Part shown: one piece after another, positions 22,861 to 58,614 of the stretch
Layout: every line of letters starts with the position of its first letter
Numbering within the stretch: position 1 is the stretch's first letter
Origin: Jiella pacifica
Lineage (GTDB): Bacteria > Pseudomonadota > Alphaproteobacteria > Rhizobiales > Rhizobiaceae
Direction: 5' to 3'
Length of the DNA stretch: 59,444 nucleotides
Assembly: GCF_010500815.1 (NCBI RefSeq)
Contig: NZ_JAAAMG010000028.1
Span: 1-59,444 of the forward strand
Program-made: the position numbers and the translations under genes
Notes under the pieces: model-generated
Databases searched by the model: none
What the model was told of the DNA's origin: nothing
What the model saw: the letters and a program-made list of their open reading frames with translations, nothing else

Positions 22861-22914
22861 GGGAAGACATCCTCGGGACGATGGAATGAGACGTGCCGGC
22901 TCGCGCCGAAGGAA

Positions 22915-22936: not shown

Positions 22937-22976
22937 GTACCGTTGGCGAGAGGACGGAAAAATTGACCGCGCGGGG

Positions 22977-31922: not shown

Positions 31923-31934
31923 GTCCGTCTTCCC

Positions 31935-35438: not shown

Positions 35439-35469
35439 CCGGGCCTCCTCTCCCGAACGTCCGTCCGGC

Positions 35470-36489: not shown

Positions 36490-36506
36490 GGTTTGCCTCC
36501 CTTGCA

Positions 36507-36592: not shown

Positions 36593-36600
36593 GTGATGAT

Positions 36601-38151: not shown

Positions 38152-38234
38152 ATGCCTGTTCCTCCCGTAATGTCCGACGAGCCGGCGGGTCCTCCACCGC
38201 CGATGGCTCGTCTCGCGCAATTCGTCGGCGCGCT

Positions 38235-38336
38235 AGAGCGGGATGAGATGAGCCCCGCTCATCGTCCCGCTCTATCTTCCTGTTTGCGCATGATCGTTTC
38301 CGAAAACCGGTTCCCACTTTTCGGGATCATGCTTTA
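38235..38336. repeat. Rhizobiales-type intergenic palindromic repeat
   Basis: Two hairpins are joined. AGAGCGGGA pairs with TCCCGCTCT (38235-38273). GCATGATC and GATCATGC (38288-38332) enclose CCGAAAA/TTTTCGG. The wording TTTTCGGGATCATGCTTTAG is familiar from dispersed palindromes of rhizobial and Brucella-like genomes. Its last bases provide the TAA stop of the reductase-like gene on the minus strand. Confidence 0.7.
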
Positions 38337-40809: not shown

Positions 40810-40882
40810 CTGCCTGCCGATCGTCCTGCCGGTCGCGCTTTCGCGAAGTTGCGAGTTGGCCAAAAATTGCCACCACAGAAAG

Positions 40883-40897
40883 TTATTTTCAAGATAA
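40883..40897. promoter_or_regulatory. AT-rich near-palindrome, candidate RpiR operator
   Basis: TTATTTTCAAGATAA matches its own reverse complement at 12 of 15 positions. A related half, ATTATTTTTA, follows directly, and a perfect GACATGTC lies at 40909-40916. All are in the AT-rich gap between the RpiR gene and the CUT2 binding-protein gene. Confidence 0.4.
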
Positions 40898-41020
40898 TTA
40901 TTTTTATGGACATGTCATTTTCATGTTGTTAGCCTTCTCCGATCGGACCTGGACCGGGAGGCCCTTCCACGATTGGGAAGGTCGGGATCAGCTCCGCTCA
41001 GCTTTTCGGGAGGAGAAGAC

Positions 41021-42037: not shown

Positions 42038-42044
42038 TCCTGTC

Positions 42045-42070
42045 GGGACCGTCCGCAAGCGGGCGGTCCC
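42045..42070 (+). terminator. Hairpin after the CUT2 binding-protein gene
   Basis: GGGACCGTCCGC and GCGGGCGGTCCC pair with one G-T wobble and a very short loop, eight bases after the stop codon. No long T-run follows. The ATPase gene starts 55 bases later, so partial termination or 3' stabilisation is likely. Confidence 0.6.
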
Positions 42071-42124
42071 TCTCGTCGTCCTCGGGCTCGTGAAGGGCCC
42101 GCAGGCATTTCCACGGGAGGCTTC

Positions 42125-43654: not shown

Positions 43655-43668
43655 GAGGGGAGGGGATC

Positions 43669-44661
43669 GTGACCGTGACCCAGAGACTGGACGACACCCC
43701 CGCACGCAAGCACAAGCCGCTCCTCGCCGGCAACGGCTTCGGCTCGAATATCCTGGCGCTCGCGCTGGTGACGCTCGCGATCTTCGCCTTCCTGGCACTG
43801 ACGCGGCAAAATTTCGCCACCTGGCAGAATCTCAACTCGATCCTGTTCGGGGTGTCGATCGACTTCCTGGCGATCGTCGGCTTCACCTATGTGATGGTGA
43901 TGCGCGAGATCGACCTTTCCGTCGGATCGGTCTTCGCCTTCACCGGCACGCTGACCGGCGCGCTTCTCGTGGGCGGCTGGGGCTTCTGGCCGGCGGCCGG
44001 TGTGGCGTTGCTGGCAGCCGCGGCGATCGGCTTCGTCAACGGCTTCCTCGTCGTCCGCTTCAACATCAACTCGCTGATGCTGACGATCGGCTCGATGCTG
44101 CTCGTGCGCGGCCTTTCCAACGTCCTGGCAAACGATCTCGGCGGCCAGACCTATCCGCGGGCCTTCCGCAGCCTGGCGCGGACCAACCTCTTCGACATCC
44201 GCATCACCATCGTCGTTATGATCGTACTCGTGCTGCTCGCCTGGGGCTTCCAGCGGCGCGCGGCGCTCTATCGAAAGATGTGCTTCATCGGCGAGAACGT
44301 GAAGTCGGCGACCGTCCACGGCATCCAGGTCGGCACGATCAAGATCCTGGCCTTCGTCGCCAGCGCGATGACGGCCGGCGTCGCCGGCATCTTCACCGCC
44401 TCGCGCATCACCCATGCCGACGTCCGCATGGGTCTGGGGCTCGAATTCGTCATGGTCACCGCCGCGATCATCGGCGGCGCCAGCCTTTACGGCGGCAGGG
44501 GCGACCTGCGCGGCTCGGCGCTGGGGCTCCTGCTGCTGGCGCTCGTCCTGAACGGGATGATCATGTACGACATCGAGCCCGTCTTCCAGCAGTTCGTCAT
44601 CGGCGCGTTGTTGATCGCGACCGTCGCCTTCGACACCGTTCTCAACCGTCGCGGCCAGTGA
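43669..44661 (+). CDS. CUT2 ABC transporter permease 1 (RbsC-like), 330 aa
   Basis: A GTG start follows GAGGGGAGGGG. About nine hydrophobic segments are seen. The family signature is MVMREIDLSVGSVFAFTG near residue 80, with AAIIGGASLYGGRGDLRGSA near 265. The next permease gene starts eight bases after its stop, and the pair should form a heterodimeric channel. Confidence 0.92.
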   Translation: MTVTQRLDDTPARKHKPLLAGNGFGSNILALALVTLAIFAFLALTRQNFATWQNLNSILFGVSIDFLAIVGFTYVMVMREIDLSVGSVFAFTGTLTGALLVGGWGFWPAAGVALLAAAAIGFVNGFLVVRFNINSLMLTIGSMLLVRGLSNVLANDLGGQTYPRAFRSLARTNLFDIRITIVVMIVLVLLAWGFQRRAALYRKMCFIGENVKSATVHGIQVGTIKILAFVASAMTAGVAGIFTASRITHADVRMGLGLEFVMVTAAIIGGASLYGGRGDLRGSALGLLLLALVLNGMIMYDIEPVFQQFVIGALLIATVAFDTVLNRRGQ

Positions 44662-44668
44662 GGGCGCC

Positions 44669-45691
44669 ATGAGCAGCATCCGCAAGACGTCCTTCCTGCG
44701 CTCGGCACGGCTGGAACAGGAGACGCTGACCTTCACGGTGGTGATCCTTCTGGCCCTCGTGCTCACATCGATCTCGCCGGCCTTCCTCGATCCGAACAAT
44801 CTCGCCTCGCTGCAGACGGCCGTGGCGCCGAATCTGATCGTGGCGCTCGGCATGATGACGCTGTTCATGATCGGCCGTTTCGACCTGTCGGTCGGCGCGG
44901 TGATGGGCATTTCCGGCATCGCCTCGGCGATGGCGCTCGATGCGGGCATGCCGGTGCCCGTAGCCTTTGCGACCGGCATCATGACGGGCGCGGCGATCGG
45001 CGCGTTCAATGGGCTCCTGGTCGCCTATCTCGGCATCAATCATCTGATCGTCACGCTCGGCGTCCTCTACATGACGCGCGGGGTGATCGAGGTGGTGATG
45101 TCCGGCCAGCAGCTCGGCGGCTTCACCTCGTTTCCCGAAGGCTTCAGCATGCTCGGCCAGTGGGGCTTCGGCGGCCTGTCGGGTATCTTCCTGTTCTCGC
45201 TGATCCTCTGCATCGGCTTCGAGGGCTTCATGCGGCTGACGCTGCCGGGGCGGAAGCTGTTGTTCCTCGGAGGCAATCCGGTGGCGGCGGAGGCGATGGG
45301 CATCGCCCGCCGGCGCACCGAGTTCTGGTGCTTCGTCCTGTCGGGTGGGCTGGCAGCGCTCGCCGGCGTCCTGATGACCGCCCGCGTCGGCATGGCCAAC
45401 CGCTACATGGGCGACGGGCTGGAAATGCAGATCTTCATCGCCTGCCTGATCGGCGGTGGCTCGATCGCCGGCGGCAAGGGCTCCTATGTGGGCGCGCTGG
45501 CGGGGGTACTGTTCGTGACGCTTCTCACCAACGCCTTCAATCTCCTGCTGGTGCCGTCGGAGTGGCAGGCGGTGGTGATCGGCGCCGTCCTCGTCCTCGT
45601 GCTCGTCGCCGACGGTATCATGGTGCTGCGCAAGCGCGGCCGGCCGTGGCGCAACATCCTCGGCCTCTGGCCGTCGCGCCTAGCGACCTGA
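44669..45691 (+). CDS. CUT2 ABC transporter permease 2 (RbsC-like), 340 aa
   Basis: It carries the same architecture as its partner: MTLFMIGRFDLSVGAVMGIS, NHLIVTLGVLYMTRGVIEVV and IACLIGGGSIAGGKGSYVGA. It is the last gene of the transporter operon and ends 46 bases before a strong bidirectional terminator. Confidence 0.92.
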   Translation: MSSIRKTSFLRSARLEQETLTFTVVILLALVLTSISPAFLDPNNLASLQTAVAPNLIVALGMMTLFMIGRFDLSVGAVMGISGIASAMALDAGMPVPVAFATGIMTGAAIGAFNGLLVAYLGINHLIVTLGVLYMTRGVIEVVMSGQQLGGFTSFPEGFSMLGQWGFGGLSGIFLFSLILCIGFEGFMRLTLPGRKLLFLGGNPVAAEAMGIARRRTEFWCFVLSGGLAALAGVLMTARVGMANRYMGDGLEMQIFIACLIGGGSIAGGKGSYVGALAGVLFVTLLTNAFNLLLVPSEWQAVVIGAVLVLVLVADGIMVLRKRGRPWRNILGLWPSRLAT

Positions 45692-45737: not shown

Positions 45738-45767
45738 AAAAGGGCGGCCCCGCGGGGCCGCCCTTTT
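45738..45767. terminator. Bidirectional intrinsic terminator
   Basis: AAAAGGGCGGCCCC and GGGGCCGCCCTTTT pair perfectly over 14 bp with a two-base centre, giving a T-run on each strand. It lies between two convergent genes (permease on plus, SDR on minus) and can serve both. Confidence 0.9.
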
Positions 45768-45789
45768 CGCATTCGAAGAGCCGATGCCT

Positions 45790-46566
45790 TCATTCTTCCA
45801 AGGGGTTGCCGCTGACGAAGCCGCCGTCGACCTCGAGGCACATGCCGGTGACATAGGCGGCCGCAGGCGACGCGAGGAACAGACAGGGTCCGACGAGATC
45901 GGCCGTCGTGCCCCAGCGGCCGAGCGCGGTGCGGCGCGAGACAGCCTCCTCGCCGAAGGGCACCGACCAGATCGGCTTGGTCATGTCGGTCTTGTGGTAG
46001 CCCGGCGCGACGGCGTTCACCCGGATGCCCTCGCGTCCCCATTTGTGGGCAAGGGCGCGAGTCAGGCCAAGGACGCCGGTCTTCGAGGCCGTATAGGCCG
46101 GAACGCCGGGATCGGCCATGTAGCTCAGCATCGAGGCAATGTTGACGATGCTGCCCTTCGCCTCGGCCAGCCGGTCCTTCAGGCCGATCGCCAGGCGGAA
46201 CTGGCTGTTGAGGTTCACCTCCATGGTGTCGAGCCAGATGTCCTCGTCCCACTCCGCTCCGCCGCGCGCGATGCCGGCGCCGTTCACCAGCACGTCGCAG
46301 CGCGTCTGCCTGACGCAGAAGGCCTTCACCGCCTCCCGGTCGCGCACGTCCAGCACTTCGAAGCGCAGACGCGGGTCTTCCCGCTTGAGAGAGGCAATCT
46401 TTTCCACCGAGGACCCGAGGGCTGTCACGTCAGCGCCGAGAGCGACGAAACCGCGGGCGATGTCGAGGCCGATACCGCTCGTCGCACCGGAGGAGATCAC
46501 GTGCATGCCGGCGAAAAGATCGCTGCGGAAGCTGCCAAGCAAAGTGTCCGTTGCAATTGCGTCCAT
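45790..46566 (-). CDS. Short-chain dehydrogenase/reductase, 258 aa
   Basis: The cofactor motif is SSGATSGIG near residue 26. The NAG segment is LVNGAGIA and the catalytic Ser lies in NIASMLSYM with YTASK. The C-terminal AAYVTGMCLEVDGGFVSG is typical of classical SDRs. The ATG follows GGGAGG. It is the last gene of the operon descending from the binding protein at 53477. It may interconvert a polyol and a ketose, as inference. Confidence 0.9.
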   Translation of the reverse strand: MDAIATDTLLGSFRSDLFAGMHVISSGATSGIGLDIARGFVALGADVTALGSSVEKIASLKREDPRLRFEVLDVRDREAVKAFCVRQTRCDVLVNGAGIARGGAEWDEDIWLDTMEVNLNSQFRLAIGLKDRLAEAKGSIVNIASMLSYMADPGVPAYTASKTGVLGLTRALAHKWGREGIRVNAVAPGYHKTDMTKPIWSVPFGEEAVSRRTALGRWGTTADLVGPCLFLASPAAAYVTGMCLEVDGGFVSGNPLEE

Positions 46567-46579
46567 TCCGAGCCTCCCT

Positions 46580-47647
46580 TCAGGCCAATTGCCGCAGCGC
46601 TTCAGCCACCATGTCGGGCGAAATGCGGATCGGCTCGTTGTCCATGAGATCCCCCGGGCGGCAGGCGCGCTCCCCCACCTTGCGGAGCTTTTCGTCCGTC
46701 ACTTCGGTGATGCCGATCTCCGCCAGCGTGGTCGGCAGGCGCACCGAGCGGCAGTAATCCCGCACCTTCGCGAACTCTTCGTGCTGGCCGTGAATCAGGA
46801 GCGTGCCGAGGACGCCGATCGCCACCTTCTCGCCATGCAGGTAGCCGTGCACGTCGTGAAGCTCGCAGAGCCCGTTATGGATGGCATGGGCGCCGGCGAC
46901 GCCGCCGGACTCGAAGCCGGCTCCCGAAAGAAGGATGTTCGCCTCGACAACTTTCTCGAACGCTGGGCCAGCGGTGTCGGCATCGCATTCCTCCAAAGCC
47001 TTGGCGCCGTGTTCGACGATGGTATCACGACAGAACCTCGCAATCTCGAAGGCCAGCGGCGACCCGTGCGTGCCCCAGCAGTTCGGCGCGTCGGCGATGC
47101 GCGAACTCTCCGCTTCGTACCAGGTCGCCAGCGCATCGCCGATGCCGGCCGCTAGGAAGCGGGCCGGGGCCCTGGCGACGATCTCGGTGTCGACGAGGAC
47201 GAGATCGGGATTGCGCGGCAGGAAGTAGTCGTAATCGACCGTGTGATGCTCGGTGTAGACCACGGCAAGCGCCGAGCAGGGCGCGTCGGATGCGGCGATG
47301 GTCGGCACGATCACCGTCGGCAGGCTCCCGAGGCGAAACGCGGCCGCCTTGGCCGTGTCGAGCGCCTTGCCGCCGCCGATGCCGATGACGAGATCGGCCC
47401 CGGCTGCCTTGCCGGCCTCGACGCCCCGGCCGATTTCGGCCTCCGAACATTCGCCGCCATGGATGAGCAGCGTCGTCTCGAGCGGCTGGACGCCATCCCG
47501 CACGGACGGCTCGAGGAAGGACGAGACGTTGCCGTCGAGAATGACCAGGGCCTTCGTTCCAAGGCTCTTGGATTCCTCGCCGAGCCGGGCGATCAGCCCC
47601 GGCGCCTGGATATAGCGGCCCGGAAAGCGGGCTCCCTTAATGTACAT
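46580..47647 (-). CDS. Iron-containing alcohol dehydrogenase, glycerol-dehydrogenase (GldA) type, 355 aa
   Basis: The NAD site has GIGGGKALDTAKAAAF and PTIAASDAPCSALAVVY. Metal ligands are in AAGIGDALATWYE (Asp), AGAHAIHNGL (His) and GYLHGEKVAIGV (His). The ATG at 47647 (MYIKGARFPGRYIQ) follows GGGAGGAA; the open frame above is a shadow of the SDR. It is flanked by two SDR genes in one operon and probably oxidises a sugar alcohol or its phosphate. Confidence 0.9.
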   Translation of the reverse strand: MYIKGARFPGRYIQAPGLIARLGEESKSLGTKALVILDGNVSSFLEPSVRDGVQPLETTLLIHGGECSEAEIGRGVEAGKAAGADLVIGIGGGKALDTAKAAAFRLGSLPTVIVPTIAASDAPCSALAVVYTEHHTVDYDYFLPRNPDLVLVDTEIVARAPARFLAAGIGDALATWYEAESSRIADAPNCWGTHGSPLAFEIARFCRDTIVEHGAKALEECDADTAGPAFEKVVEANILLSGAGFESGGVAGAHAIHNGLCELHDVHGYLHGEKVAIGVLGTLLIHGQHEEFAKVRDYCRSVRLPTTLAEIGITEVTDEKLRKVGERACRPGDLMDNEPIRISPDMVAEALRQLA

Positions 47648-47658
47648 GTGTTCCTCCC

Positions 47659-48423
47659 TCACCAGCAGGTGTAGCCGCCGTCCGCCAGGACGATGGATCC
47701 GGTCATCAGGCTCGCCGCTTCGGATGCCAGGAAGAGGACGACGGCGGCGACCTCGTCGGGCCGGCCCATCCGGCCTTGCGGCGTCCCGCCGACCCAGTGT
47801 CGCATCAGCTCCGGATCGTCGTAGACGTAAGCGTTCATCTCGGTCTCGATGTAGGTGGGCGCCACCGCATTCACCCGGACGCCGCGCGGCGCCCATTCGG
47901 CCGCCAGCGAGCGCGTCAGCTGGTGCACCGCCGCCTTCGAGGCGTTGTACTGGGCCTGCTCCTGCGGGCGGTTGACGATGAAGCCGGACATCGAGCCGAT
48001 ATTGACGATGGAGCCGGCCTTGCGCTCCAGCATTTGCTTGCTGAAGGAGCGGCAGCACCAGAACAGGCCGTTGAGGTTGATGTCGATCACCGAGCGCCAG
48101 ACGTCGTCGCTCATCGTCTCGGCAGGGACGTTCGAGCGGGCGATGCCGGCATTGTTCACCAGCACGTCGACATAGGAGTATTTGCCGGCGAGCGTTTCGA
48201 CGGCCGCGGAAGAGGTAACTTCCAACTGATCGGCGACGACGTCGTGGCCTTTGCCGCGCAGCGTCGCGGCGGAAGTCTCGGCCGTCTCGCCGTTGCGGTC
48301 GGTAAGGATCACCCGGGCGCCGGCCTCCGCCAGCGCCTCGCAGGTGGCAAGGCCGATGCCGCGCGCGCCGCCCGTTACCAGAGCGGTGCGCCCGGTCAGC
48401 CGGAAGCGGTCCATGTAGTTCAT
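47659..48423 (-). CDS. Short-chain dehydrogenase/reductase, 254 aa
   Basis: TALVTGGARGIGLATCEALA carries the cofactor motif. NNAGIARSNVP, the catalytic NIGSMSGFIV and YNASKAAV follow, with the C-terminal SIVLADGGYTCW. The start at ATG 48423 follows GGGAGA. It lies 16 bases downstream of the FGGY-kinase gene. D-arabinitol, sorbitol and similar polyol dehydrogenases belong to this class; the substrate here is not known. Confidence 0.9.
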   Translation of the reverse strand: MNYMDRFRLTGRTALVTGGARGIGLATCEALAEAGARVILTDRNGETAETSAATLRGKGHDVVADQLEVTSSAAVETLAGKYSYVDVLVNNAGIARSNVPAETMSDDVWRSVIDINLNGLFWCCRSFSKQMLERKAGSIVNIGSMSGFIVNRPQEQAQYNASKAAVHQLTRSLAAEWAPRGVRVNAVAPTYIETEMNAYVYDDPELMRHWVGGTPQGRMGRPDEVAAVVLFLASEAASLMTGSIVLADGGYTCW

Positions 48424-48439
48424 CGAGTGTCTCCCGAGG

Positions 48440-49945
48440 TCAGGCACCTGGCGCATCGAGCGCGTCGAGGTCGTCGTAAAAATCTTGGGCCGTTGCATAG
48501 AGGCGGTCGAAGATCGGCTGCATCCGGGCATAGGTCTCGGCCCAGGCTGGCTCCGGCCGGACTTCGCGCGTGTGGCGGACGATCCGCGCCGCTGCGGCAT
48601 CGAGGTCCGCATCGGCGCCGGTCGCGACGGCGGAAAGGATCGCGCAGCCGACGAGGCCACATTCGGCCTCTTCGGGGATGAGGATGGTCTTGCCGTAGAT
48701 GCTGGCCTTGATCCGCAGCCAGAGGTCGGCCTTCGCGCCGCCGCCGGACGCGATCAGCACCTCGGGCACGGTGCCCGTCGCCCGCTCCATGATTTTCAGA
48801 TGACGATTGACCGCAAAACCGACGCCTTCGAGCACGGCGCGATGCATCTGCGGCAGTCCGTGACGGGCTGACAGGCCGAAGAACTGGGCCCGCGAATTGC
48901 GGTGTTCGCCGAGCCGCTCGCCGACGAGATAGGGCAGGAAGAACAGCGCCTCGGCCCCAGCCGGCGCAGCTTCGGCCATGGCCAGCGTCTCGGCATAGCC
49001 GACCGCGTCGTCGTGGAAGGTCCGGCGGGCCCAGCGGGCGCTGTCGCCGCCCGCTTCGAGCAGCACGAAGGCGCCCCAGTTGCCCTCGGGCGTCCCGACA
49101 TTGCTGATCTCGGCGTCGAGAACCGGCTTCTCCGCGATGAGGGTGACGATCGACGAGGTGCCGGCGACCTCCGAGGCGAGGCCCGGCCGGCAGACGCCGG
49201 AGCCGAGAAGCGCGACCGGATAGTCGCCCCCGCCGACCAGTACCGGCGTTCCCTCGGCAAGTCCGGTCTCCGCGGCGGCCGACCGCGTCACCCGGCCGAG
49301 GATCTCCGACGGCAGGCGGATCGGCGCCATCATCGAAATGTCGAGGCCCAGACGATCGAACACCGTCTTGGACCACGTTCCGGTCGAAGCATCGACGAGG
49401 AAGGAGCAGGCCGCATCCGTCCAGTCCATCGCCCGCTCGCCGGTCAGCTTGAGATTGACGAAGTCCTTCGGCATCATCACGCTCGCGGTCCGGCGATAGG
49501 CCTCCGGATCGTTGTCGCGCAGCCATTGCAGCTTGAAGGCCGGCCAGGCCGGCGTCGGCGGATTGGCGGTCAGCTGCAGCCAGTCGGCGAGGGCTTCTTT
49601 GGCCTCGAAGGCGCGGACATGGTCAAGCGTGCGCTTGTCGTTCCAGAGTGGGACCGTGTCGCGGGTCGGTTCGCCGTCGGCATCCACCAGCACCGTGCCG
49701 TGCATCTGGCCGCAGGCGCAGACCGCGGCCACCGTGTGGCCTTCGCCGCGGGCGTGGTCCGTGACCTCGCCCAGACAGGCCTTCGCGGCGTCCCACCAGT
49801 CCTTTGGCCGCTGCTCGGACCAACCGAAGGCCGGAACGATCTGGCGATATTCGCGGGCCGCGACGAACAGCACCCTGCCGTCCGGGCTCATCAGGGCGGC
49901 ACGGGTCGATCCCGTGCCGATGTCGATTGCGACCGTCGTTTCCAT
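48440..49945 (-). CDS. FGGY-family kinase, xylulokinase-like, 501 aa
   Basis: The N terminus VAIDIGTGSTRAALMSPDG, the xylulokinase-type ACGQMHGTVLVDADG, PLWNDKRT, EVAGTSSIVTLI and the C-terminal VLIASGGGAKADLWLRIKAS are seen. The start at ATG 49945 is two bases from the permease stop. The operon order transporter-kinase-dehydrogenases suggests phosphorylation of a ketose made by the neighbouring polyol dehydrogenases. Confidence 0.9.
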   Translation of the reverse strand: METTVAIDIGTGSTRAALMSPDGRVLFVAAREYRQIVPAFGWSEQRPKDWWDAAKACLGEVTDHARGEGHTVAAVCACGQMHGTVLVDADGEPTRDTVPLWNDKRTLDHVRAFEAKEALADWLQLTANPPTPAWPAFKLQWLRDNDPEAYRRTASVMMPKDFVNLKLTGERAMDWTDAACSFLVDASTGTWSKTVFDRLGLDISMMAPIRLPSEILGRVTRSAAAETGLAEGTPVLVGGGDYPVALLGSGVCRPGLASEVAGTSSIVTLIAEKPVLDAEISNVGTPEGNWGAFVLLEAGGDSARWARRTFHDDAVGYAETLAMAEAAPAGAEALFFLPYLVGERLGEHRNSRAQFFGLSARHGLPQMHRAVLEGVGFAVNRHLKIMERATGTVPEVLIASGGGAKADLWLRIKASIYGKTILIPEEAECGLVGCAILSAVATGADADLDAAAARIVRHTREVRPEPAWAETYARMQPIFDRLYATAQDFYDDLDALDAPGA

Positions 49946-49947
49946 GA

Positions 49948-50934
49948 TCAGCGACGGAAGAGGGTGGAGCCGTTCTGAATCAGCACGGCGACGACGATGA
50001 TGACACCGAGATAGACCTGCTGGTGGTAGCCCGGCACGCCGGCGAGATTCATGATGTTGCCGATGACGCCGAGGATCATCACGCCGATGAAGGTGTTGAT
50101 CACACCGCCGCGTCCGCCCATCAGGCTCGCCCCGCCGATGACGACGGCGGCGATGACGTCGAGCTCGTTGCCGGCGCCGACCGAGGCCGAGCCGACGCCC
50201 GAGCGCGAGGTGATCAGAACGCCGGCCACCGCGGCGAGGGCCCCGGAAATCACATAGACCGACAGCACGTACCACGGCACCGAAATGCCGGAGAGGCGGA
50301 CGGCTTCTTCGTTCGAGCCGATCGCCTTCACCAGCCGGCCGAAGCGGCTGTAGTTGAGGATGATGAAGGCCAGCGCGAAGAGACCGATCATCAGGACGGC
50401 GGGGTTCGGGAAGCCGAGGCTGAAGGACGTGCCGAACGCCTGCAGCGGCGCTCCGGCCGGGCCGGGCATGATCGGCTGGCCGTTCGACAGGATCAGTGCG
50501 AAGCCGCGCGCTGCCGTCATCATGGCGAGCGTGATGACAAAGGCCGGCAGGCGGAAGAAGGCGATCAGCGCGCCGGAGATCAGCCCGCAGGCGGCGCCGA
50601 TTCCGATGGCCATCAGGAGGGCGACCGGGAGAGGATAGGACTGGATGAGAACGGCCGCGGAGACCGAGCCGAGGGCGGCGATGGAGCCGACCGAAAGATC
50701 GATGCCGCGGGTCAGGATGACGAACAGCATGCCGATCGCCATGACGCCGATCCCCGACATCTGTCGCAGGACGTTCATGACGTTGCGCTCGGTCAGGAAG
50801 GCGTCGGACTGTTCCTGCGCCACGATCAGGAGCAGGACGAAGATGATGACGGTGCCGTATTGGCGAAACGCCTTGCCAAAGTTGAATCGGCTTCGGGCCG
50901 GCGTCTCGTTGATGGTTGCCGCGTTGTCCGTCAT
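49948..50934 (-). CDS. CUT2 ABC transporter permease (RbsC-like), 328 aa
   Basis: Signature segments are FVILTRGIDLSVGSIAALGS and AAVVIGGASLMGGRGGVINT. About eight to nine hydrophobic helices are seen. It overlaps the ATPase gene by four bases. There is only one permease gene in this operon, so the channel is presumably a homodimer, unlike the two-permease transporter at 41021-45691. Confidence 0.92.
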   Translation of the reverse strand: MTDNAATINETPARSRFNFGKAFRQYGTVIIFVLLLIVAQEQSDAFLTERNVMNVLRQMSGIGVMAIGMLFVILTRGIDLSVGSIAALGSVSAAVLIQSYPLPVALLMAIGIGAACGLISGALIAFFRLPAFVITLAMMTAARGFALILSNGQPIMPGPAGAPLQAFGTSFSLGFPNPAVLMIGLFALAFIILNYSRFGRLVKAIGSNEEAVRLSGISVPWYVLSVYVISGALAAVAGVLITSRSGVGSASVGAGNELDVIAAVVIGGASLMGGRGGVINTFIGVMILGVIGNIMNLAGVPGYHQQVYLGVIIVVAVLIQNGSTLFRR

Positions 50935-52436
50935 GCCCGGCCCTCCGTGCCGCTCTGCCGATGACCGGTCATCGACAGCGTCAGCAGCTTTTCTTCTTTG
51001 AATTCATGAGGCTGCAGCTCGCCCCGAAGTCGCCCTTCGCCCATCACCAGCACCCGGTCGCAGAGCCCGAACAGTTCGGCATGTTCGGAGGAGATGACGA
51101 TGACGGCCTTCCCCGCCGAGGCCAGCTGATGGATCAGCGAATAGATCTCGGTCTTCGCACCCACATCGACGCCGCGTGTCGGCTCGTCGAGGATGATGAG
51201 GTCGGGATCGGCGTTGAACCACTTGGCGAGCACCACCTTCTGCTGGTTGCCGCCGGAGAGGCTCGACACCGGATCGTTCATCGAGCCGAGCTTGATGCGC
51301 AGGGAGCGGATCAGCCTCTCGACGACGCTGCGCTCGGCGCTCGGCTTGAAGAAACCGGCGCGGGTGATCGGCCCGCTCTTCGCCATGGTGGCGTTCTTGC
51401 GGATCTCCATGTCCAGGACGACGCCCTGGCTCTTGCGGTCTTCCGGCACGAGGCCGACGCCCTGCTTTACGGCATGGCGGGGGGAGCGGGGGCTGTAGGC
51501 GGCCCCCTTCAGCAGCATCGTGCCGCCGCTGATCCGGTCGGCGCCGAATATCGCCCGTGCGACCTCCGTCCGGCCGGAGCCGACGAGCCCGCCGAGACCG
51601 ACGACCTCGCCGCGACGGATCGAGAAGCTGACGTCGCGGACGCCGTTCGGCAGGGTGAGGCCGTCGATCCGCAGCACTTCCTCGCCGATGGCGGTCTCAG
51701 GCTTGTCGCCGAACAGCTGCGACAGCGGCCGGCCGACCATCATGCGGATGAGTTCTTCGACGGGGGTCGAGGCCGGCGTGACCGTGCCGACGCGCTGGCC
51801 GTCCTTCATGACGGTGATGCGATCGGCGATCTTGTAGATCTCGTCGAGCCGGTGGGAGATGTAGACGATGCCGACGCCCTCGGCGCGCAGGCCCTTGATG
51901 ATCTCGAGCAACCGTTCGGCGTCGCCGCTGGCAAGGACGGCCGTCGGTTCGTCGAAGACGATCGCCTTGACGTCGCGCGAAAGGGCCTTGGCGATCTCGA
52001 CCACCTGCTGATGGGCGACGGCGAGATCGGCGACCTGCGTGCGAGGGGATATGTCGAAGCCGAGCCGCTCGATCAGCGCGCGTGCGCGCTCGTTCAGCCG
52101 CGGCCAGTTGATGCCTTGCGGCAGGGCGCCGAGGAAGATGTTCTCGGCGACCGACAGGTCGGGCGCCAGCGCCATTTCCTGATGAATGACCGAGATGCCG
52201 CGCCTTATGGCGTCGGTCGGGCCGGCGAGGCGGATCTCCTCGCCTTCGATCAGCGTGCGACCGGCATTCGGCCGCATCTCGCCGCCGAGAACCCGCATCA
52301 GGGTGGACTTGCCGGCGCCGTTTTCGCCGACAAGCGCGTGTACTTCGCCGGCGTGAAGGTCGAAGTCGACGTCGGTCAGCGCGTGGACGCCGGCGAAGGA
52401 CTTGGTGATGTTCTCAAGCTGAATCAGGGCCGTCAC
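50931..52436 (-). CDS. CUT2 sugar ABC transporter ATP-binding protein (RbsA type), 501 aa
   Basis: A GTG start at 52436 is spaced eight bases from AAGGGG; GTG 52445 is the alternative. The first half has GENGAGKSTLMRVLGG, a degenerate signature LAVAHQQVVEIAKAL and AIVFDEPTAVL. The second half has GLVGSGRTEVARAIFG, SLSGGNQQKVVLAKWF and LIILDEPTRGVDVGAK. Tandem domains of this form are standard for CUT2 transporters. Confidence 0.92.
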   Translation of the reverse strand: MTALIQLENITKSFAGVHALTDVDFDLHAGEVHALVGENGAGKSTLMRVLGGEMRPNAGRTLIEGEEIRLAGPTDAIRRGISVIHQEMALAPDLSVAENIFLGALPQGINWPRLNERARALIERLGFDISPRTQVADLAVAHQQVVEIAKALSRDVKAIVFDEPTAVLASGDAERLLEIIKGLRAEGVGIVYISHRLDEIYKIADRITVMKDGQRVGTVTPASTPVEELIRMMVGRPLSQLFGDKPETAIGEEVLRIDGLTLPNGVRDVSFSIRRGEVVGLGGLVGSGRTEVARAIFGADRISGGTMLLKGAAYSPRSPRHAVKQGVGLVPEDRKSQGVVLDMEIRKNATMAKSGPITRAGFFKPSAERSVVERLIRSLRIKLGSMNDPVSSLSGGNQQKVVLAKWFNADPDLIILDEPTRGVDVGAKTEIYSLIHQLASAGKAVIVISSEHAELFGLCDRVLVMGEGRLRGELQPHEFKEEKLLTLSMTGHRQSGTEGRA

Positions 52437-52472
52437 GGGCCGCACCCCTTGCGTTTCGCGATGTCGAAACGG

Positions 52473-52506
52473 CGGTGATCGCCGGGCCTGAACCCGGCGA
52501 TCACCG
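52473..52506 (-). terminator. Strong hairpin after the CUT2 binding-protein gene
   Basis: CGGTGATCGCCGGG and CCCGGCGATCACCG pair perfectly over 14 bp around a six-base loop, five bases after the binding-protein stop. No T-run follows on the minus strand. It is the clearest member of the post-binding-protein hairpins in this window. Confidence 0.7.
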
Positions 52507-52511
52507 GACGA

Positions 52512-53477
52512 TCAGAAGACCGAGTCGGGCTTGTAGTACTGGTCGACGTTGTCCTTCGTCACGGCGGCCGGGTCCGTAAAGGTGTACTTGCCGAGGTTCT
52601 GCTCCTCGCCGTTCAGCGCCTTGACGCCGATGTCGACGGCCATCTTGGCGAGGGCGGCCGGATCGTTGAGGCCGGTGGCGCCGTATTCGCCGTCCTTGAT
52701 CATCTTGTAGGCTTCCTTCTGGCCGTCGGCGGCGGCGACGAGAAGCACGCCGTCGAGGCGACCAGCGGCCTTCAGGGCCTCGCGAGCGCCGATGACCATG
52801 GAGTCGTTCTCGCCGAGCACGACGTTGATGTCCGGATGAGCGGTCAGAAGATCTTCCATGGCGGTCAGGCCGCCGTCGGTCGACCAGCTGCCCCAACCCT
52901 GACCGACGACGGAGATGTCGGCGTGGCCGTAATTGGTCAGCTGGGCCTCCATCAGGCCGGAAAGTACGCCGGTGCGGCGGGCCTCGCCGACGAGATTGCC
53001 CTTCTGGCCCGAAACCAGCGCGATCTTGAGCGGCTTGCCGCCGGTTGCCGTCGCCAGCCACTGGCCGACCAGCTTGCCATTTTCGGCGTTCGACGCTGAC
53101 ACATTGGTGATGAAGTTGGCGGATGCGTCGAGCATCGAGTCCATCGCCACAACCTTGACGCCTTCGGCCGTCGCCGCGTTGACCGCGGGAACCAGGCCGA
53201 GCGGATCGCGCGGGTTGACGATCAGGACGTTGACGCCGGCGGCGATCATGTCCTCGATGTCGCCGATCTGCTTGACCATGTCGTTCTGGCCGTCGGCGGT
53301 GCGTACGTCGCAGCCGGCCGCCTCGGCCGCATCACGGGCGGCGGCTTCCTGGGCCGCGAAGTAGGGCGCATCGAGCGTGTACATCGAGACGCCGACCGAG
53401 CACTTCTCCTGTGCCATTGCGGCAGACGTCATCACCGTGGCGCCCAGAAGGGCACCAGCGAAAATCGCGAGCTTCAT
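52512..53477 (-). CDS. CUT2 sugar ABC transporter solute-binding protein, 321 aa
   Basis: The ATG at 53477 follows GGGAGGT. The signal peptide MKLAIFAGALLGATVMTSAA precedes a ribose-binding-like fold (SMYTLDAPYFAAQEAAARDA, VLIVNPRDPLGLVPAVNAAT, VLGENDSMVIGAREALKAAG). It is the first gene of the seven-gene operon ending at the 45738 terminator and is divergent from the cupin-isomerase operon. Confidence 0.92.
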   Translation of the reverse strand: MKLAIFAGALLGATVMTSAAMAQEKCSVGVSMYTLDAPYFAAQEAAARDAAEAAGCDVRTADGQNDMVKQIGDIEDMIAAGVNVLIVNPRDPLGLVPAVNAATAEGVKVVAMDSMLDASANFITNVSASNAENGKLVGQWLATATGGKPLKIALVSGQKGNLVGEARRTGVLSGLMEAQLTNYGHADISVVGQGWGSWSTDGGLTAMEDLLTAHPDINVVLGENDSMVIGAREALKAAGRLDGVLLVAAADGQKEAYKMIKDGEYGATGLNDPAALAKMAVDIGVKALNGEEQNLGKYTFTDPAAVTKDNVDQYYKPDSVF

Positions 53478-53605
53478 TTTGACCTCCCAATCAAGGCCCG
53501 GCGGCAGCACAGTTTCCGGACATGGTGTCGGGAGACCTGTGGCGGCGGGCACAACATCGGAGGCTAATCCGGCAAAACGAGCGCGTCAACGACTCGAACA
53601 AAAAA

Positions 53606-53620
53606 TGTAGTGAAATTACC
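53606..53620. promoter_or_regulatory. HexR-like box in the divergent promoter
   Basis: TGTAGTGAAATTACC matches the published HexR consensus TGTARTWWWAYTACA, as remembered, at 13 of 15 positions. It lies between the CUT2 binding-protein gene and the cupin-isomerase gene, and the latter operon ends with a HexR-like RpiR regulator. Binding is inferred. Confidence 0.55.
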
Positions 53621-53702
53621 AAACAGGTTGCGGAAGCCGGAATGAAGGGCGTAAACTCGGCTTCAAACGTATTTAAGTTACAAGAAATGGAGGATTGAGG
53701 TC

Positions 53703-54338
53703 ATGCGCGTAGCCGAGCCACGGCGCTGCGACATCTCCGTCGCGACCGGAATGCTGGTCAATGGCGATGGGCACTACCGGAAGACCTATCGCGATCTGGC
53801 GGGTCTTTACGCCGACGCAGCCGGCTTCGAGGCGATCCTCGCGGAAAAGGCGGACAAGGTCGCCTACGAGGTCACGTCCTACACGCCCGGAGAAAAAACT
53901 TCCGACCTGATCATGGGCGTCACGCGCATGGAGCCCGGCAAGGTCGGGCGCGAGTTCTTCCTCACGCGCGGTCACATCCATGCCAGGGGTGACCGTCCCG
54001 AGATCTACCATACCCTGTCGGGGCGAGGGGTCATGCAGCTCGAAAGCCCGGGCGGCGAGGTCAGGCTGGTCGAGATGGGGCCGCAGCAGGTCTGCTACGT
54101 GCCGCCCTTCTGGATTCACCGCTCGGTCAATATCGGCTCCGAGGACCTGGTGATGTTCTTTTCCTACCCGGCCGACTCCGGCCAGGACTACGGCATCATC
54201 GAGCGCTCCGGCGGCATGCGCGTCCGCGTCATGGACGACGGGAAGGGCGGCTATGTCGCCGAGGAGAATCCGGCCTGGCGCGAGCGCAGCGCGGCGGAAG
54301 TCGATGCGATCCTCTCCGGCGAGGCGATGGCCGCATGA
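53703..54338 (+). CDS. Cupin-type glucose-6-phosphate isomerase, 211 aa
   Basis: The cupin metal site is seen in REFFLTRGHIHARGDRPEIY followed by H, with the HxH, Glu and second His arrangement of the archaeal/rhizobial cupin phosphoglucose isomerases. The total length also fits. TGGAGG lies upstream of the ATG. It would interconvert an aldose and ketose phosphate; whether glucose 6-phosphate is the true substrate is open. It is the first gene of a tightly coupled six-gene operon. Confidence 0.85.
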   Translation: MRVAEPRRCDISVATGMLVNGDGHYRKTYRDLAGLYADAAGFEAILAEKADKVAYEVTSYTPGEKTSDLIMGVTRMEPGKVGREFFLTRGHIHARGDRPEIYHTLSGRGVMQLESPGGEVRLVEMGPQQVCYVPPFWIHRSVNIGSEDLVMFFSYPADSGQDYGIIERSGGMRVRVMDDGKGGYVAEENPAWRERSAAEVDAILSGEAMAA

Positions 54339-54979
54339 GTGACGCTTTCGCCGAAATCGCGAAGATCGGCGTCGTGCCGGTCATCGCTATCGAGAGTATC
54401 GACCACGCCGTGCCGCTCGCCGACGCGCTGCTCGAAGGTGGCCTCGGCGTTGCCGAGATTACCTTCAGGACCGAAGCCGCCGCCGACGTCATGGCCCTGC
54501 TCAGCGACAAGCGGCCGGAGCTTTTGCTCGGGGCCGGGACGGTGCTGAACCCCGATCAGGTCAAACGTGCCGTGAGTGCGGGTGCCGCCTTCGCCCTCGC
54601 GCCGGGGTTCGATCCTGCGGTCGTCGAAGCCGCCGAGGCGGCAAGCCTGCCCTTCGCACCCGGCATCATGACGCCCTCCGACATTTCCCTCGCGACGGCT
54701 CGCGGCTGCCGCCTGATGAAATTCTTCCCGGCAACGCCCGCCGGAGGCCCTTCGATGCTGAAGAACATCAGCGCCCCCTTCGCGCATCTGCAGGCAAAAT
54801 TCATCCCGACCGGCGGCGTTACGCTGGACACAATCGCGGACTGGCTGTCCCTGCCGGAGATCGCGGCGGTGGGCGGAACCTGGATCGCCAAGGCCGAGGA
54901 CATGCGCGCCGGCGACTGGCAGGCGATCGCCGCCAAGGCGCGTGCCGCCGTCGCCCGTGCTAGGGAGTTGCGCCCATGA
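54335..54979 (+). CDS. eda: 2-dehydro-3-deoxyphosphogluconate aldolase (KDPG/KHG aldolase family), 214 aa
   Basis: Active-site residues of Eda are in place: Glu in VAEITFRTEAA, the GAGTVLN loop and the Schiff-base Lys in RLMKFFPATPAGG, followed by TGGVTLDTIADWL. It is coupled to the genes on both sides by ATGA overlaps. It splits a 2-keto-3-deoxy sugar-acid phosphate into pyruvate and an aldehyde. No Edd-type dehydratase is seen nearby to feed it. Confidence 0.88.
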   Translation: MSDAFAEIAKIGVVPVIAIESIDHAVPLADALLEGGLGVAEITFRTEAAADVMALLSDKRPELLLGAGTVLNPDQVKRAVSAGAAFALAPGFDPAVVEAAEAASLPFAPGIMTPSDISLATARGCRLMKFFPATPAGGPSMLKNISAPFAHLQAKFIPTGGVTLDTIADWLSLPEIAAVGGTWIAKAEDMRAGDWQAIAAKARAAVARARELRP

Positions 54980-55929
54980 GCCGCTATCAGCCCGCCGAAA
55001 GGCCGACCTTCTATTTCATCGGCGTCACCACGGGCAAAAGCTCGATCATGAAGGTGTTTCCCGCCTGGGCGCGGGAACTCGGCCTCGGCGACGCCGAGAT
55101 GAGAGGCATCGACTTTCCCCTGCATGCCGAGCCCGCCGCCTACCGCGAGGCGGTGGAATTCATCCGCGACGATCCGCTGTCGCTCGGCGCGCTGGTCACC
55201 ACCCACAAGATCGACCTCTTCAACGCCTGCCGCGACCTTTTCGACGTGATCGATCCCTTCGCTGTCCTGATGAAGGAGACGTCCTGCATCTCGAAGAGGG
55301 ACGGCAGGCTCGTCTGTCACGCCAAGGATCCGATCTCCTCCGGCCTGTCGATCGACGGCTTTCTCGGCGAGGGCTACTTCGCCCGCACAGGGGCCGAGGT
55401 CTTCTCGATCGGCGCCGGCGGCTCGACCATCGCGCTGACCTGGCATCTCATGCGCAAGGAGCGCGGCAATGACGTGCCGGCGCGCATCGTCGTCTCCAAC
55501 CGCTCGCAGCCGCGGCTGGACGAGATCCGCCACATCCATTCGCAGATCGAGAGCGACGTGCCTGTCGACTACGTCCTCGCGCCGACGCCGGCAGACAACG
55601 ACGCCGTCCTTCCGGCCCTGAAGCCGGGTTCCCTGGTGATCAACGCCACCGGCCTCGGCAAGGACGCGCCGGGATCGCCGCTGACGGACGCCGCGGCGTT
55701 CCCGCGCGAGGCAGTCGTGTGGGACCTGAACTATCGCGGCGACCTCGTCTTCCTCGATCAGGCGCGGGCGCAGGCGCAAAAGCAGGGACTCACCATCGTC
55801 GACGGCTGGACCTACTTCATTCATGGCTGGACGCAGGTGATCGCGGAGGTGTTCGACATCTCCATCGGCACCGACGCCGCAACCATCGACCGCCTGACCG
55901 ACATCGCCCTCAAGGCCGCGAAGGGCTGA
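54976..55929 (+). CDS. Shikimate/quinate dehydrogenase-like protein, 317 aa
   Basis: The N-terminal substrate domain has LGALVTTHKIDLF, with the Lys in the position of the catalytic Lys of shikimate dehydrogenase. The NAD(P) domain has EVFSIGAGGSTIALTWHLM and INATGLGKDAPGSPLTD, and near the end WTYFIHGWTQVIAEVF. It is larger and more divergent than AroE. In this catabolic operon it is probably a paralogue acting on a sugar-derived ketone or hydroxyacid. Confidence 0.75.
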   Translation: MSRYQPAERPTFYFIGVTTGKSSIMKVFPAWARELGLGDAEMRGIDFPLHAEPAAYREAVEFIRDDPLSLGALVTTHKIDLFNACRDLFDVIDPFAVLMKETSCISKRDGRLVCHAKDPISSGLSIDGFLGEGYFARTGAEVFSIGAGGSTIALTWHLMRKERGNDVPARIVVSNRSQPRLDEIRHIHSQIESDVPVDYVLAPTPADNDAVLPALKPGSLVINATGLGKDAPGSPLTDAAAFPREAVVWDLNYRGDLVFLDQARAQAQKQGLTIVDGWTYFIHGWTQVIAEVFDISIGTDAATIDRLTDIALKAAKG

Positions 55930-55933
55930 GGCG

Positions 55934-56878
55934 ATGGCCCGCATCCTCATCACCCCGCGGTCGCTGACGGCGGCGCCGCCGGCCGAACTCGGACGGCTGC
56001 GGCAGGCTGGTCACGAACTCATCTTCTCGACGGCCGGCCAGACGCCGGACGAAGCCGAACTCCTTCGGCTCGTGCCGCAGGTCGAGGGCTGGCTCGCCGG
56101 CGTCGAGCCGATCTCGCCGGCGGTGATCGCCGCTGCGGACCGGCTTCACGTCATCAGCCGCAACGGCTCCGGCGTCGACAATCTGCCGTTGGCCGACCTC
56201 GAACGGCGCGGCATCCGGGTCGCCCGGGCGATGGCTGCAAATGCGACGGGCGTCGCCGAACTCGCCGTCGGGCTCTGCGTCGCGGCCTGCCGCAATCTGC
56301 CGGAGGTCTGCCACGGCGTTCGCGGCGGCGGCTGGCCGCGTCCGAAGGGGCGGGAGATCGAAGGCGCGGTCGTCGGCGTTGTCGGTGCCGGGGCGATCGG
56401 TCGCAAGGTCGCCGGCATTCTCGCCGAGTTCGGCGCAAAGGTCCTCGCTCTCGATCCGTTTCGGCCTGACCTTGGCCGGCTCGCCGGGCGAGTCCGCTAC
56501 GTCGAAAGAGCGGAGCTCTTCGATGGCGCGGACATCGTCACCCTGCACTGCCCGATGTCCGCCGAAGGCGCGCCGCTCATCGACGCGCCCACGCTCGCAT
56601 CCATGAAAAGGGGGGCGATCATCGTCAACACCGCCCGGGCCGGCCTGATCGACGAGGCCGCGCTCGTCGCCGCGCTCGACGAGGGGCGGATTGCCGCCTA
56701 TGCCACGGACGTCTTCGAGCCGGAGCCACCGGCTGCGGGTGGGCTCGCAGCCCATCCAAAGGTCATTGCGACCAGCCATATCGGCGGCCTGACCGACGAA
56801 AGCGTCCGGCGCGCCACGGACCTGGCAGTCGACAGCCTGCTGCAGCATCTCGGCGAAGCCTGCCATGTGGCTGGCTGA
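55934..56878 (+). CDS. D-isomer-specific 2-hydroxyacid dehydrogenase, 314 aa
   Basis: The Rossmann motif is VGVVGAGAIGRKVAG. The catalytic residues are Arg in NTARAGLIDE, Glu in DVFEPEP and His in TSHIGG. It starts four bases after the previous stop. It belongs to the same superfamily as the enzyme at 15868 but to a different context, and likely handles a phosphorylated or free sugar-acid intermediate. Confidence 0.88.
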   Translation: MARILITPRSLTAAPPAELGRLRQAGHELIFSTAGQTPDEAELLRLVPQVEGWLAGVEPISPAVIAAADRLHVISRNGSGVDNLPLADLERRGIRVARAMAANATGVAELAVGLCVAACRNLPEVCHGVRGGGWPRPKGREIEGAVVGVVGAGAIGRKVAGILAEFGAKVLALDPFRPDLGRLAGRVRYVERAELFDGADIVTLHCPMSAEGAPLIDAPTLASMKRGAIIVNTARAGLIDEAALVAALDEGRIAAYATDVFEPEPPAAGGLAAHPKVIATSHIGGLTDESVRRATDLAVDSLLQHLGEACHVAG

Positions 56879-57728
56879 GCACCCCCTCGACGCACCGCTT
56901 CGCGAGGTCCTTGCGGCACCGCCGGGCGCGCGTGTCCAGCTGTTCTGGCTGGGGCAGGCCGGCTTCGTCGTCGAGGGGGGCGGCCGGCGCGTGGTGATCG
57001 ATCCCTATCTGTCGGATTCGCTGGCGGAGAAGTATCGCGGCGCGCGCTTTGCCCATGTCAGGATGATGCCGGCGCCGGTCGAGCCTTGCGAGATCCTCCA
57101 TGTCGATGCGATGCTCGCCACCCACGCCCACACCGACCACCTCGATCCGGGAACGCTGCCGCAGCTCCTTGCGAATAACCTCGATGCGCCGTTGATCGTG
57201 CCGAAATCGGCCTTGGCGGTGGCACTGCAGCGCTCCTGCGTCCCCAAGCAGCGGCTGATCGGCATCGACGCTGGCGAAACATGCAAATGGCCGGGACTGT
57301 CGATCACTGCGGTGCGGGCCGCTCACGAGACGCTGGAACGCGACGACCAGGGCTTCTACCGGTTCCTCGGCCTTGCCGTTCGCCTTGGTGGCGCCACGGT
57401 CTATCACTCCGGCGACACCGTGCCGTTCGACGGTCAGGTCGAGGAGGTGCGTGAGCTGAATGCCGATCTCGCCTTGCTGCCGGTCAACGGCCGGGATGCC
57501 GTCCGGGCATCGAACGGCGTCCCCGGCAACATGAGCGTGGAGGAAGCGCTGGATCTCTGCCGCGCCACCGGCATCGGCGCCATGATCGCTCATCATTTCG
57601 ATCTCTTCGCCTTCAACACAGTCCCGCGGGAAACGGTCGAGGCGCTTGCAAGCCGGTCGGATCTGCCCCATGCGGTGGCGGCCCGGCTCGACCGCTTCTA
57701 TAGTCTCGGGCCAGAGCAGACAGGCTGA
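56865..57728 (+). CDS. Metallo-beta-lactamase-fold hydrolase, UlaG-like (lactonase type), 287 aa
   Basis: The metal-binding motif is ATHAHTDHLD near residue 85. Further ligands lie in YHSGDTVPFDG and IAHHFDLFAFNT. The overall wording resembles UlaG, the L-ascorbate-6-phosphate lactonase, and related UPF0173 enzymes. The gene overlaps the hydroxyacid-dehydrogenase gene by 14 bases. A lactonase step between an oxidised sugar phosphate and its acid would fit the operon. Confidence 0.8.
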   Translation: MWLAEHPLDAPLREVLAAPPGARVQLFWLGQAGFVVEGGGRRVVIDPYLSDSLAEKYRGARFAHVRMMPAPVEPCEILHVDAMLATHAHTDHLDPGTLPQLLANNLDAPLIVPKSALAVALQRSCVPKQRLIGIDAGETCKWPGLSITAVRAAHETLERDDQGFYRFLGLAVRLGGATVYHSGDTVPFDGQVEEVRELNADLALLPVNGRDAVRASNGVPGNMSVEEALDLCRATGIGAMIAHHFDLFAFNTVPRETVEALASRSDLPHAVAARLDRFYSLGPEQTG

Positions 57729-57732
57729 GACT

Positions 57733-58614
57733 ATGAACAAACCGGCGGATACGGCACTGCCGCGCAACATGCTCGAACTGGTCCGGGTGATCCGCACCGA
57801 TCTGCGCAAGTCCGACCGCAAGGTGGCGGACGCGCTGCTCGACGATCCCCATCGCATCCTCAACTCGACCGTCGCCGAGACGGCCGAGATCGCCGAGGTC
57901 AGCCAGCCCACCGTCTTGCGCTTCTGCACCGCGATCGGCTGCGACGGCTTTCAGGACTTCAAGATCCGGCTCGCCCAGAGCCTTGCACTCGGCACGCCGG
58001 CGACCCAGTCTGCCATCATCGAGGAGGACACGCCGGAAGAGGTGGCGGCAAAGATCTTCGACTACACCATGACCTCGCTCGACTGGGCGCGTCACAAGCT
58101 CGACCTCACCCAGATCAACGCCGCCGTGGAGCTGATCCTGACGGCCCGCAGCCTCGAGATCTTCGGATACGGCGCCTCGGCGATCGTCGCACAGGATCTG
58201 CAGCAGAAGTTCCCGCTTCTGGGGCTGCCCTGCCATGCGACCATGGACAGCCACCAGCAGCTGATGGCCGCCTCGATGATGCGGCCGGGCGACGTCGCCG
58301 TGACGATCTCGAACACCGGCACCACGCTCTCGATCATCGAACTGGCGCGTCTGGCGCGCGAGCAGGGCGCCAAGGTGATCGCCATCACCGGCGCCTCGCA
58401 GACGGCGCTCGCCAACTATGCCGACATCCTGATCAACGTCGAGACCCTCGACAATACCGACCTGTTCACCCCGACGACGTCGCGCATCGCCGCGCTGGTG
58501 ACTGTCGACATCCTCTCCACCCTTGTCGCCAGGCGCCTCGGCCGGGTCCAGAACCAGCGGCTCATCCGGATGAAGCGCTATCTTGCACAGGTGCGCAAGA
58601 GCGGACTTTTCTAG
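57733..58614 (+). CDS. RpiR-family regulator, HexR-like, 293 aa
   Basis: The start at ATG 57733 lies four bases after the previous stop; the RBS is weak. The HTH_6 domain (LRKSDRKVADALLDDPHRIL, EVSQPTVLRFCTAIGCDGFQ) is followed by DFKIRLAQSLALGTP and a SIS domain (FGYGASAIVAQDLQQKFPLL, VTISNTGTTLSIIELARLA). The wording parallels HexR, which senses 2-keto-3-deoxy-6-phosphogluconate, the substrate of the aldolase in the same operon. It probably controls the operon through the box at 53606. Confidence 0.88.
   Translation: MNKPADTALPRNMLELVRVIRTDLRKSDRKVADALLDDPHRILNSTVAETAEIAEVSQPTVLRFCTAIGCDGFQDFKIRLAQSLALGTPATQSAIIEEDTPEEVAAKIFDYTMTSLDWARHKLDLTQINAAVELILTARSLEIFGYGASAIVAQDLQQKFPLLGLPCHATMDSHQQLMAASMMRPGDVAVTISNTGTTLSIIELARLAREQGAKVIAITGASQTALANYADILINVETLDNTDLFTPTTSRIAALVTVDILSTLVARRLGRVQNQRLIRMKRYLAQVRKSGLF

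Follow-up and report, generated by a model that had tools for sequence, protein, structure and literature searches.

A conserved pair of divergent operons in Jiella pacifica and a candidate Entner-Doudoroff-type route for a sugar alcohol

The window, which is the whole stretch of 59,444 nucleotides that we analysed, is contig 21 of the 5.77-Mb genome of Jiella pacifica, and it carries two divergent operons that may form a catabolic system for a sugar alcohol (Table 1). Read outwards from the shared promoter, the minus-strand operon encodes a CUT2 solute-binding protein (SBP), ATPase and permease, an FGGY kinase, an SDR oxidoreductase, a GldA-like iron-type alcohol dehydrogenase and another SDR. 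The plus-strand operon encodes, in order, a cupin phosphoglucose isomerase, the 2-keto-3-deoxy-6-phosphogluconate (KDPG) aldolase Eda, an AroE-like oxidoreductase, a D-2-hydroxyacid dehydrogenase (HADH), a metallo-beta-lactamase-fold (MBL) hydrolase and an RpiR/HexR-like regulator. The genes of the latter operon are tightly packed, with 4-bp overlaps between cupin and Eda and between Eda and AroE-like, a 14-bp overlap between HADH and MBL, and 4-bp gaps between AroE-like and HADH and between MBL and RpiR. An earlier note, made from the letters of this DNA alone, had described the two divergent operons and the gene identities, the coupling of the plus-strand genes by overlaps or 4-bp gaps, and the lack of a dehydratase. 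The open reading frames (ORFs) and the Pfam and NCBIfam scans confirm this description, and the stretch was found to contain no dehydratase gene. Among the loci retrieved, Jiella pelagia (locus L009) has the closest transporter.

Table 1. Features of the two operons and of the promoter between them, in window coordinates.
Feature	Position	Strand	Evidence
SDR1 oxidoreductase, putative polyol dehydrogenase	45790..46566	-	PF13561 166.7 bits
GldA-like iron-type alcohol dehydrogenase	46580..47647	-	NF006941 glycerol dehydrogenase subfamily 411.5 bits, cut-off 336
SDR2 oxidoreductase, putative polyol dehydrogenase	47659..48423	-	PF13561 217.5 bits
FGGY carbohydrate kinase, xylulokinase-like	48440..49945	-	PF00370 178.6 bits, PF02782 106.2 bits
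CUT2 permease	49948..50934	-	ORF; named by eye and context; 97% identity over match to Jiella pelagia locus
CUT2 ATP-binding protein	50931..52445	-	ORF; named by eye and context; 95% identity over match to Jiella pelagia locus
CUT2 solute-binding protein (SBP)	52512..53477	-	
Putative operator GTAGTGAAATTAC, RccR/HexR-type palindrome, divergent promoter	53607..53619		
Cupin phosphoglucose-isomerase family protein	53703..54338	+	PF06560 189.7 bits, cut-off 20.7
KDPG aldolase (Eda)	54335..54979	+	TIGR01182 228.9 bits, cut-off 156.05
AroE-superfamily oxidoreductase	54976..55929	+	
D-2-hydroxyacid dehydrogenase family protein (HADH)	55934..56878	+	PF02826 172.8 bits, PF00389 62.7 bits
UlaG-like MBL-fold hydrolase, putative lactonase	56865..57728	+	PF12706 90.1 bits
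RpiR-family regulator with SIS domain, HexR/RccR-like	57733..58614	+	PF01418 72.9 bits, PF01380 72.6 bits

A search with the AroE-like protein gave 356 genome-contig stretches with relatives, of which the best 80 were kept (70-87% identity), and the sample is therefore tilted towards close relatives. Relatives were also found on 15 plasmid records, including pSymB of S. meliloti. Among evenly drawn genomes the gene is rare: it occurs in 3 of 398 in the phylum when the window's own is counted, in 7 of 385 in the class, a count that takes in the own genome and a 31% relative, and in 1 of 300 in the order of G249, which is G249 itself. Gene presence was counted by tblastn in 84 evaluable loci, counting the window, that have an AroE-like gene and sufficient flanking sequence. 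Loci near contig ends (L020, L042, L067, L069, L076, L081) and short or duplicate ones (L001-L003, L090-L092, L095-L099, L084, L085) were left out, as were L103 and L104. It was found that the cupin is present in 81 of these loci, the FGGY kinase in 76 and the RpiR regulator in 75, with all three in 67. The same genes stand together in dozens of genomes from scattered proteobacteria, so their linkage is not chance, and the gene set is a real, conserved catabolic module. The earlier note had named a lack of joint conservation of the two operons as a ground for refuting it, and this refutation fails, since they are conserved together. It had also matched the combination to no known pathway; the literature searched for the gene set and its substrate yielded no description either, with most subscription journals outside the coverage.

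The presence of Eda, HADH and MBL is nested across the 84 loci. All three are found in 55, HADH and MBL without Eda in 13, MBL alone in 6 and none in 7, while the rarer combinations are HADH alone (L029, L100) and Eda with HADH (L079). MBL therefore includes HADH and HADH includes Eda with 3 exceptions, and Eda was never found without HADH. In the Eda-less loci that were compared, the cupin and AroE-like matches lie at most 75 bp apart, except in L080, where the Eda reading frame is reduced to a 95-codon remnant. On a quick tree of the AroE-like protein, the fewest changes are 18 for Eda, 11 for HADH and 8 for MBL, so the pattern of presence is unlike that of one event, but only 5 of the 18 independent Eda pairs and 4 of the 11 HADH pairs are on supported branches. 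The nested content suggests the order FGGY, cupin, AroE-like, MBL, HADH, Eda, and its simplest reading would be a linear pathway in which the cell's other enzymes most readily stand in for the last steps. All 28 genomes searched whose loci are without an operonic Eda hold another PF01081 protein above the cut-off, with a best E value of at most 4e-59 in 27 of them and only 4.6e-25 in the genome of L063. The order kinase, isomerase, oxidation, lactonase, aldolase that the earlier note had proposed agrees with this content; HADH, to which it gave no step, is a member of the conserved set. A GlcD-like FAD oxidase was considered as a substitute for HADH, since it is present in 3 of the 6 loci with MBL and without HADH (L054, L074, L093), but it was not relied on because it also occurs in four loci with HADH (L024, L027, L028, L039).

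The AroE-like protein has the AroE fold. Its residues K78 and D118 are conserved to 90% or more and line up with their counterparts in the AroE encoded by the same genome; we take this pair to be the catalytic Lys/Asp dyad of the superfamily. No Pfam family was found for it at E 1e-3, and it falls far below the AroE cut-offs (33.1 bits against 413 for the best NCBIfam model and 31.1 against 200.2 for aroE TIGR00507). The clade is well conserved, with 76% mean column identity over 35 sequences. The 5-ketofructose reductase of Gluconobacter and Tatumella has the same fold and acts on a sugar, at an internal carbonyl according to PMC7954740. Identity to it is only about 20% in a structural alignment, and its sugar is unphosphorylated.

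By score, Eda and the cupin are ordinary members of their families. The operonic Eda has the KFFPA, PTGG and GG[ST]W motifs in common with the stronger second Eda of the same genome, and these are presumably the Schiff-base lysine and phosphate-binding motifs of KDPG aldolase. In the cupin, H91, H93, E100 and H139 are invariant in 23 sequences and would be the three His and one Glu metal ligands, as we assume. The FGGY kinase scores 345.2 bits with the XylB model TIGR01312, below the cut-off of 380.25. The MBL protein, with H87, H89, D91, H92, H154, D184, H243 and H244 invariant in 19 sequences, has the fold of the L-ascorbate-6-phosphate lactonase UlaG and is presumed here to act on a lactone, but it reaches only 44.8 bits with NF008688 (cut-off 306) and its operon differs. 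The nearest structure to the SBP in a fold search is VEIS_2079 (4ry9), 58% identical over 297 aligned residues; nothing was found in the literature on VEIS_2079.

A palindrome that the earlier note did not mention, GTAGTNNNACTAC, lies in the divergent promoter at 53607-53619, and this is the single copy within one mismatch in the window. Of 85 loci, 57 have it, with at most one mismatch, within 320 bases upstream of the cupin match, against 0.1 expected from 50 shuffles, and its density is 77 sites in 0.497 Mb upstream of the AroE-like genes compared with 10 in 1.215 Mb in the rest of the loci. On S. meliloti pSymB (L084), a strict site stands 55 bp before the SDR gene heading a longer operon and again before a divergent SBP gene. 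In the similar loci L031, L038, L040, L044, L046, L048 and L078, strict sites are found 4-5 kb upstream of the AroE-like gene. The palindrome, 13 bp long, is like TGTAGT-N3-ACTACA and has the core of published RccR sites: in PMC5489143, the Pseudomonas RpiR regulator RccR has two 15-bp sites before aceE, TGTAGTTTTACTACT and TGTAGTAAAACTACA, and binds KDPG. Because our palindrome matches the operator of a KDPG-binding regulator, KDPG is probably both an intermediate and the inducer of the system. The RpiR protein would then bind the palindrome, with KDPG as its putative effector. It has the HTH_6 and SIS architecture of RccR and HexR, while it scores below the NCBIfam HexR cut-off (NF008451, 253.4 bits against 296) and is encoded within a catabolic operon.

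From the gene set, its conservation, the nested content and the conserved palindrome, all of which were computed directly, we infer every reaction and the step order of the following scheme. The system may be an accessory module of the Entner-Doudoroff type for the breakdown of a sugar alcohol, under an RccR/HexR-type repressor released by KDPG, a proposal to which we would give slightly less than an even chance. The CUT2 importer would take up the polyol, the SDR and GldA enzymes would oxidise it to a ketose, the FGGY kinase would phosphorylate the ketose, and the cupin isomerase would convert the phosphorylated ketose to an aldose phosphate. The AroE-like enzyme, in the place of Zwf, would oxidise the aldose phosphate to a lactone, most economically at the C1 hydroxyl of the pyranose form. 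The MBL enzyme would then open the lactone, HADH would adjust C2, and dehydration would yield KDPG; in most hosts the enzyme for this is probably an Edd whose gene lies elsewhere. Eda would cleave KDPG to pyruvate and glyceraldehyde-3-phosphate, and the RpiR protein would act as the repressor on the palindrome between the operons. If this scheme holds, it shares with the Entner-Doudoroff pathway (Zwf-Pgl-Edd-Eda) the sequence of aldose-phosphate oxidation, lactonase and KDPG aldolase, together with a HexR/RccR-type regulator. It differs in that the AroE-like protein stands for Zwf and the MBL-fold hydrolase for Pgl, a 2-hydroxyacid dehydrogenase is added, a linked Edd is missing apart from one doubtful case in 92 loci, and the polyol is fed in through an FGGY kinase and a cupin isomerase.

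Several points weigh against this proposal. The scheme leaves HADH without an evident role. D-talitol is only the putative ligand of 4ry9. The independent-pairs sign tests gave a median p of 0.25 for Eda versus HADH (5 supported pairs) and of 1 for HADH versus MBL (4 pairs). For the regulator and the palindrome, both are present in 62 loci, only the regulator in 16, only the palindrome in 2 and neither in 3, which is not a significant association (Fisher p 0.076). Action of the AroE-like enzyme on C1 is shown nowhere; its sugar-active relative works on an internal carbonyl. PMC7954740 also reports another AroE-family protein that was inactive on the substrate of 5-ketofructose reductase. The remaining points concern the dehydratase. 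Two metagenome-assembled genomes (MAGs) of Afifellaceae (L057, L061) have the full operon and no Edd over 1e-100, only two IlvD/EDD-family proteins each, alongside three PF01081 proteins each. Only 1 of 92 loci has an IlvD/EDD-family gene close to the operon, which is odd if Edd is used, since Eda sits in most of the operons. This doubtful case is L088 (Marinovum plasmid), where the gene is on the other strand, past a further regulator gene and 3.6 kb downstream of the AroE-like gene. The search spanned 8 kb and used as queries five reading frames that match PF00920 in the own genome; the frame taken at L110 may not be the gene.

Nevertheless, the missing dehydratase is mostly explained by an Edd elsewhere in the genome. 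The window's own genome encodes one outside the operon (C6:149290-151092, 1054.9 bits, cut-off 708.25), and by the TIGR01196 cut-off Edd is present in 72 of 77 genomes, with one plasmid record set aside and one genome counted once. The five misses are L057, L061, two further MAGs (L051, L069) and L033, in which two partial matches on two contigs (positions 2-224 and 230-600) look like one gene split by the assembly. The suggestion of the earlier note that the dehydratase lies elsewhere therefore holds for these 72, the own genome among them, whose Edd may serve this pathway, and is in doubt for the two Afifellaceae MAGs. Its interpretation is supported for one linked, conserved system and, by the nested content, for the order of steps, and only in part for the dehydratase.

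The MAGs without a recognisable Edd and the near-absence of a linked one keep open a reading without Edd. In it, the 1,2-enediol formed by the cupin loses the C3 hydroxyl to give a 3-deoxyosone phosphate, the AroE-like enzyme turns this into the phosphate of a 3-deoxy-aldonolactone, whose ring MBL opens, and oxidation at C2 by HADH leads to KDPG, which Eda cleaves. Every enzyme would then have a function, in line with the nested order of MBL, HADH and Eda; HADH would stand directly before Eda, and a dehydratase would be unnecessary. Such an elimination has, to our knowledge, no precedent among cupin isomerases; moreover, most of the genomes hold Edd anyway, the MAGs may be incomplete, and substitutes would be required in the minimal loci, which lack HADH and MBL. 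We regard KDPG synthesis independent of Edd as unlikely. The strong form, in which the operon is self-contained and the cupin/AroE-like pair deoxygenates C3 by enediol elimination and an NAD-dependent dismutation, is also improbable. If true, it would be a new way to KDPG and a new activity of the AroE superfamily.

Another alternative is that the AroE-like enzyme, like 5-ketofructose reductase, works at an internal position of the sugar phosphate, the C3 or C5 hydroxyl. Kinase, cupin and AroE-like enzyme would then together give a central hexose phosphate by epimerisation, with MBL, HADH and Eda as auxiliaries. The sugar-active precedent fits this, as do the 7 loci that lack Eda, HADH and MBL; cupin and FGGY are present in all of these and RpiR in 6. 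It leaves unexplained the 55 loci with the three genes and the palindrome resembling that of a KDPG sensor, and we give it little credence. It is similarly doubtful that the aldolase takes another 2-keto-4-hydroxy acid such as 2-keto-3-deoxypentonate phosphate, with HADH acting on the cleavage product or its precursor and no KDPG formed: the xylulokinase-like FGGY, the HAD phosphatase family in 23 loci and the GlcD-like oxidases in 7 would suit it, while the retained Eda motifs and the match to a KDPG sensor's palindrome speak against it.

For the accessory Entner-Doudoroff-type module, our guess at the substrate is a hexitol of the talitol, altritol or allitol type; the KDPG route fits such a substrate without proving it. 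On 2,3-dehydration, the 6-phospho derivatives of gluconate, mannonate, allonate and altronate all end in one compound, KDPG, which makes an epimerase unnecessary and a KDPG route sensible for sugars epimeric at C2 and C3. HAD phosphatase, DeoC, a second FGGY, Ldh_2, a TauD-like dioxygenase and an alpha/beta hydrolase were considered as clues, but each occurs in subsets of loci only and the substrate is not fixed by them. Three genomes of a single genus (L094:12229-13107, L100:6089-6955, L101:6310-7191) have a TauD-family dioxygenase adjoining the FGGY kinase, and the nearest solved structure to that of L094 is a phenoxypropionate dioxygenase. L062:2095-9109 and L070 contain a minimal operon with another importer type (SBP_bac_1, BPD_transp_1) and an alpha/beta hydrolase beside the FGGY kinase. 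On S. meliloti pSymB (L084:15654-17952), the operon runs on after the regulator into deoC and an FGGY kinase, and a DeoC relative and second FGGY are also found in the similar loci. The Shinella zoogloeoides plasmid L089 carries a diverged, rearranged version with two xylose-isomerase-like TIM barrels and an inositol monophosphatase family gene.

Elsewhere in the window, a second sugar operon adjoins the polyol operon at 29562-45691. By Pfam, it encodes a 786-aa double aldehyde dehydrogenase (two PF00171 stretches), a DeoC/LacD-family aldolase, a SorC-type sugar-binding regulator, two FGGY kinases and two zinc-type alcohol dehydrogenases, with a CUT2-like importer named by eye. Two of its families (F17, F24) are both near the AroE-like operon in L008, L018, L049, L053, L059 and L065. 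At 21688-23364, about 31 kb from the polyol operons, a peptide-type ABC operon includes an enolase-superfamily protein of the mandelate racemase/muconate lactonizing type, a superfamily that includes sugar-acid dehydratases. Short reading frames directly after the regulator gene at the contig end (58653-59444) are transposase-like by eye, and a Pfam scan of two of them gave no family.

The nested content offers a concrete order of steps, the palindrome bears on KDPG as inducer, and the genomes without Edd bear on the dehydratase question. If the proposed reading is right, an uncharacterised clade of the AroE superfamily, well conserved yet sporadic, would have a role in sugar metabolism, and Entner-Doudoroff chemistry would have been recruited to polyols epimeric to the common sugars.

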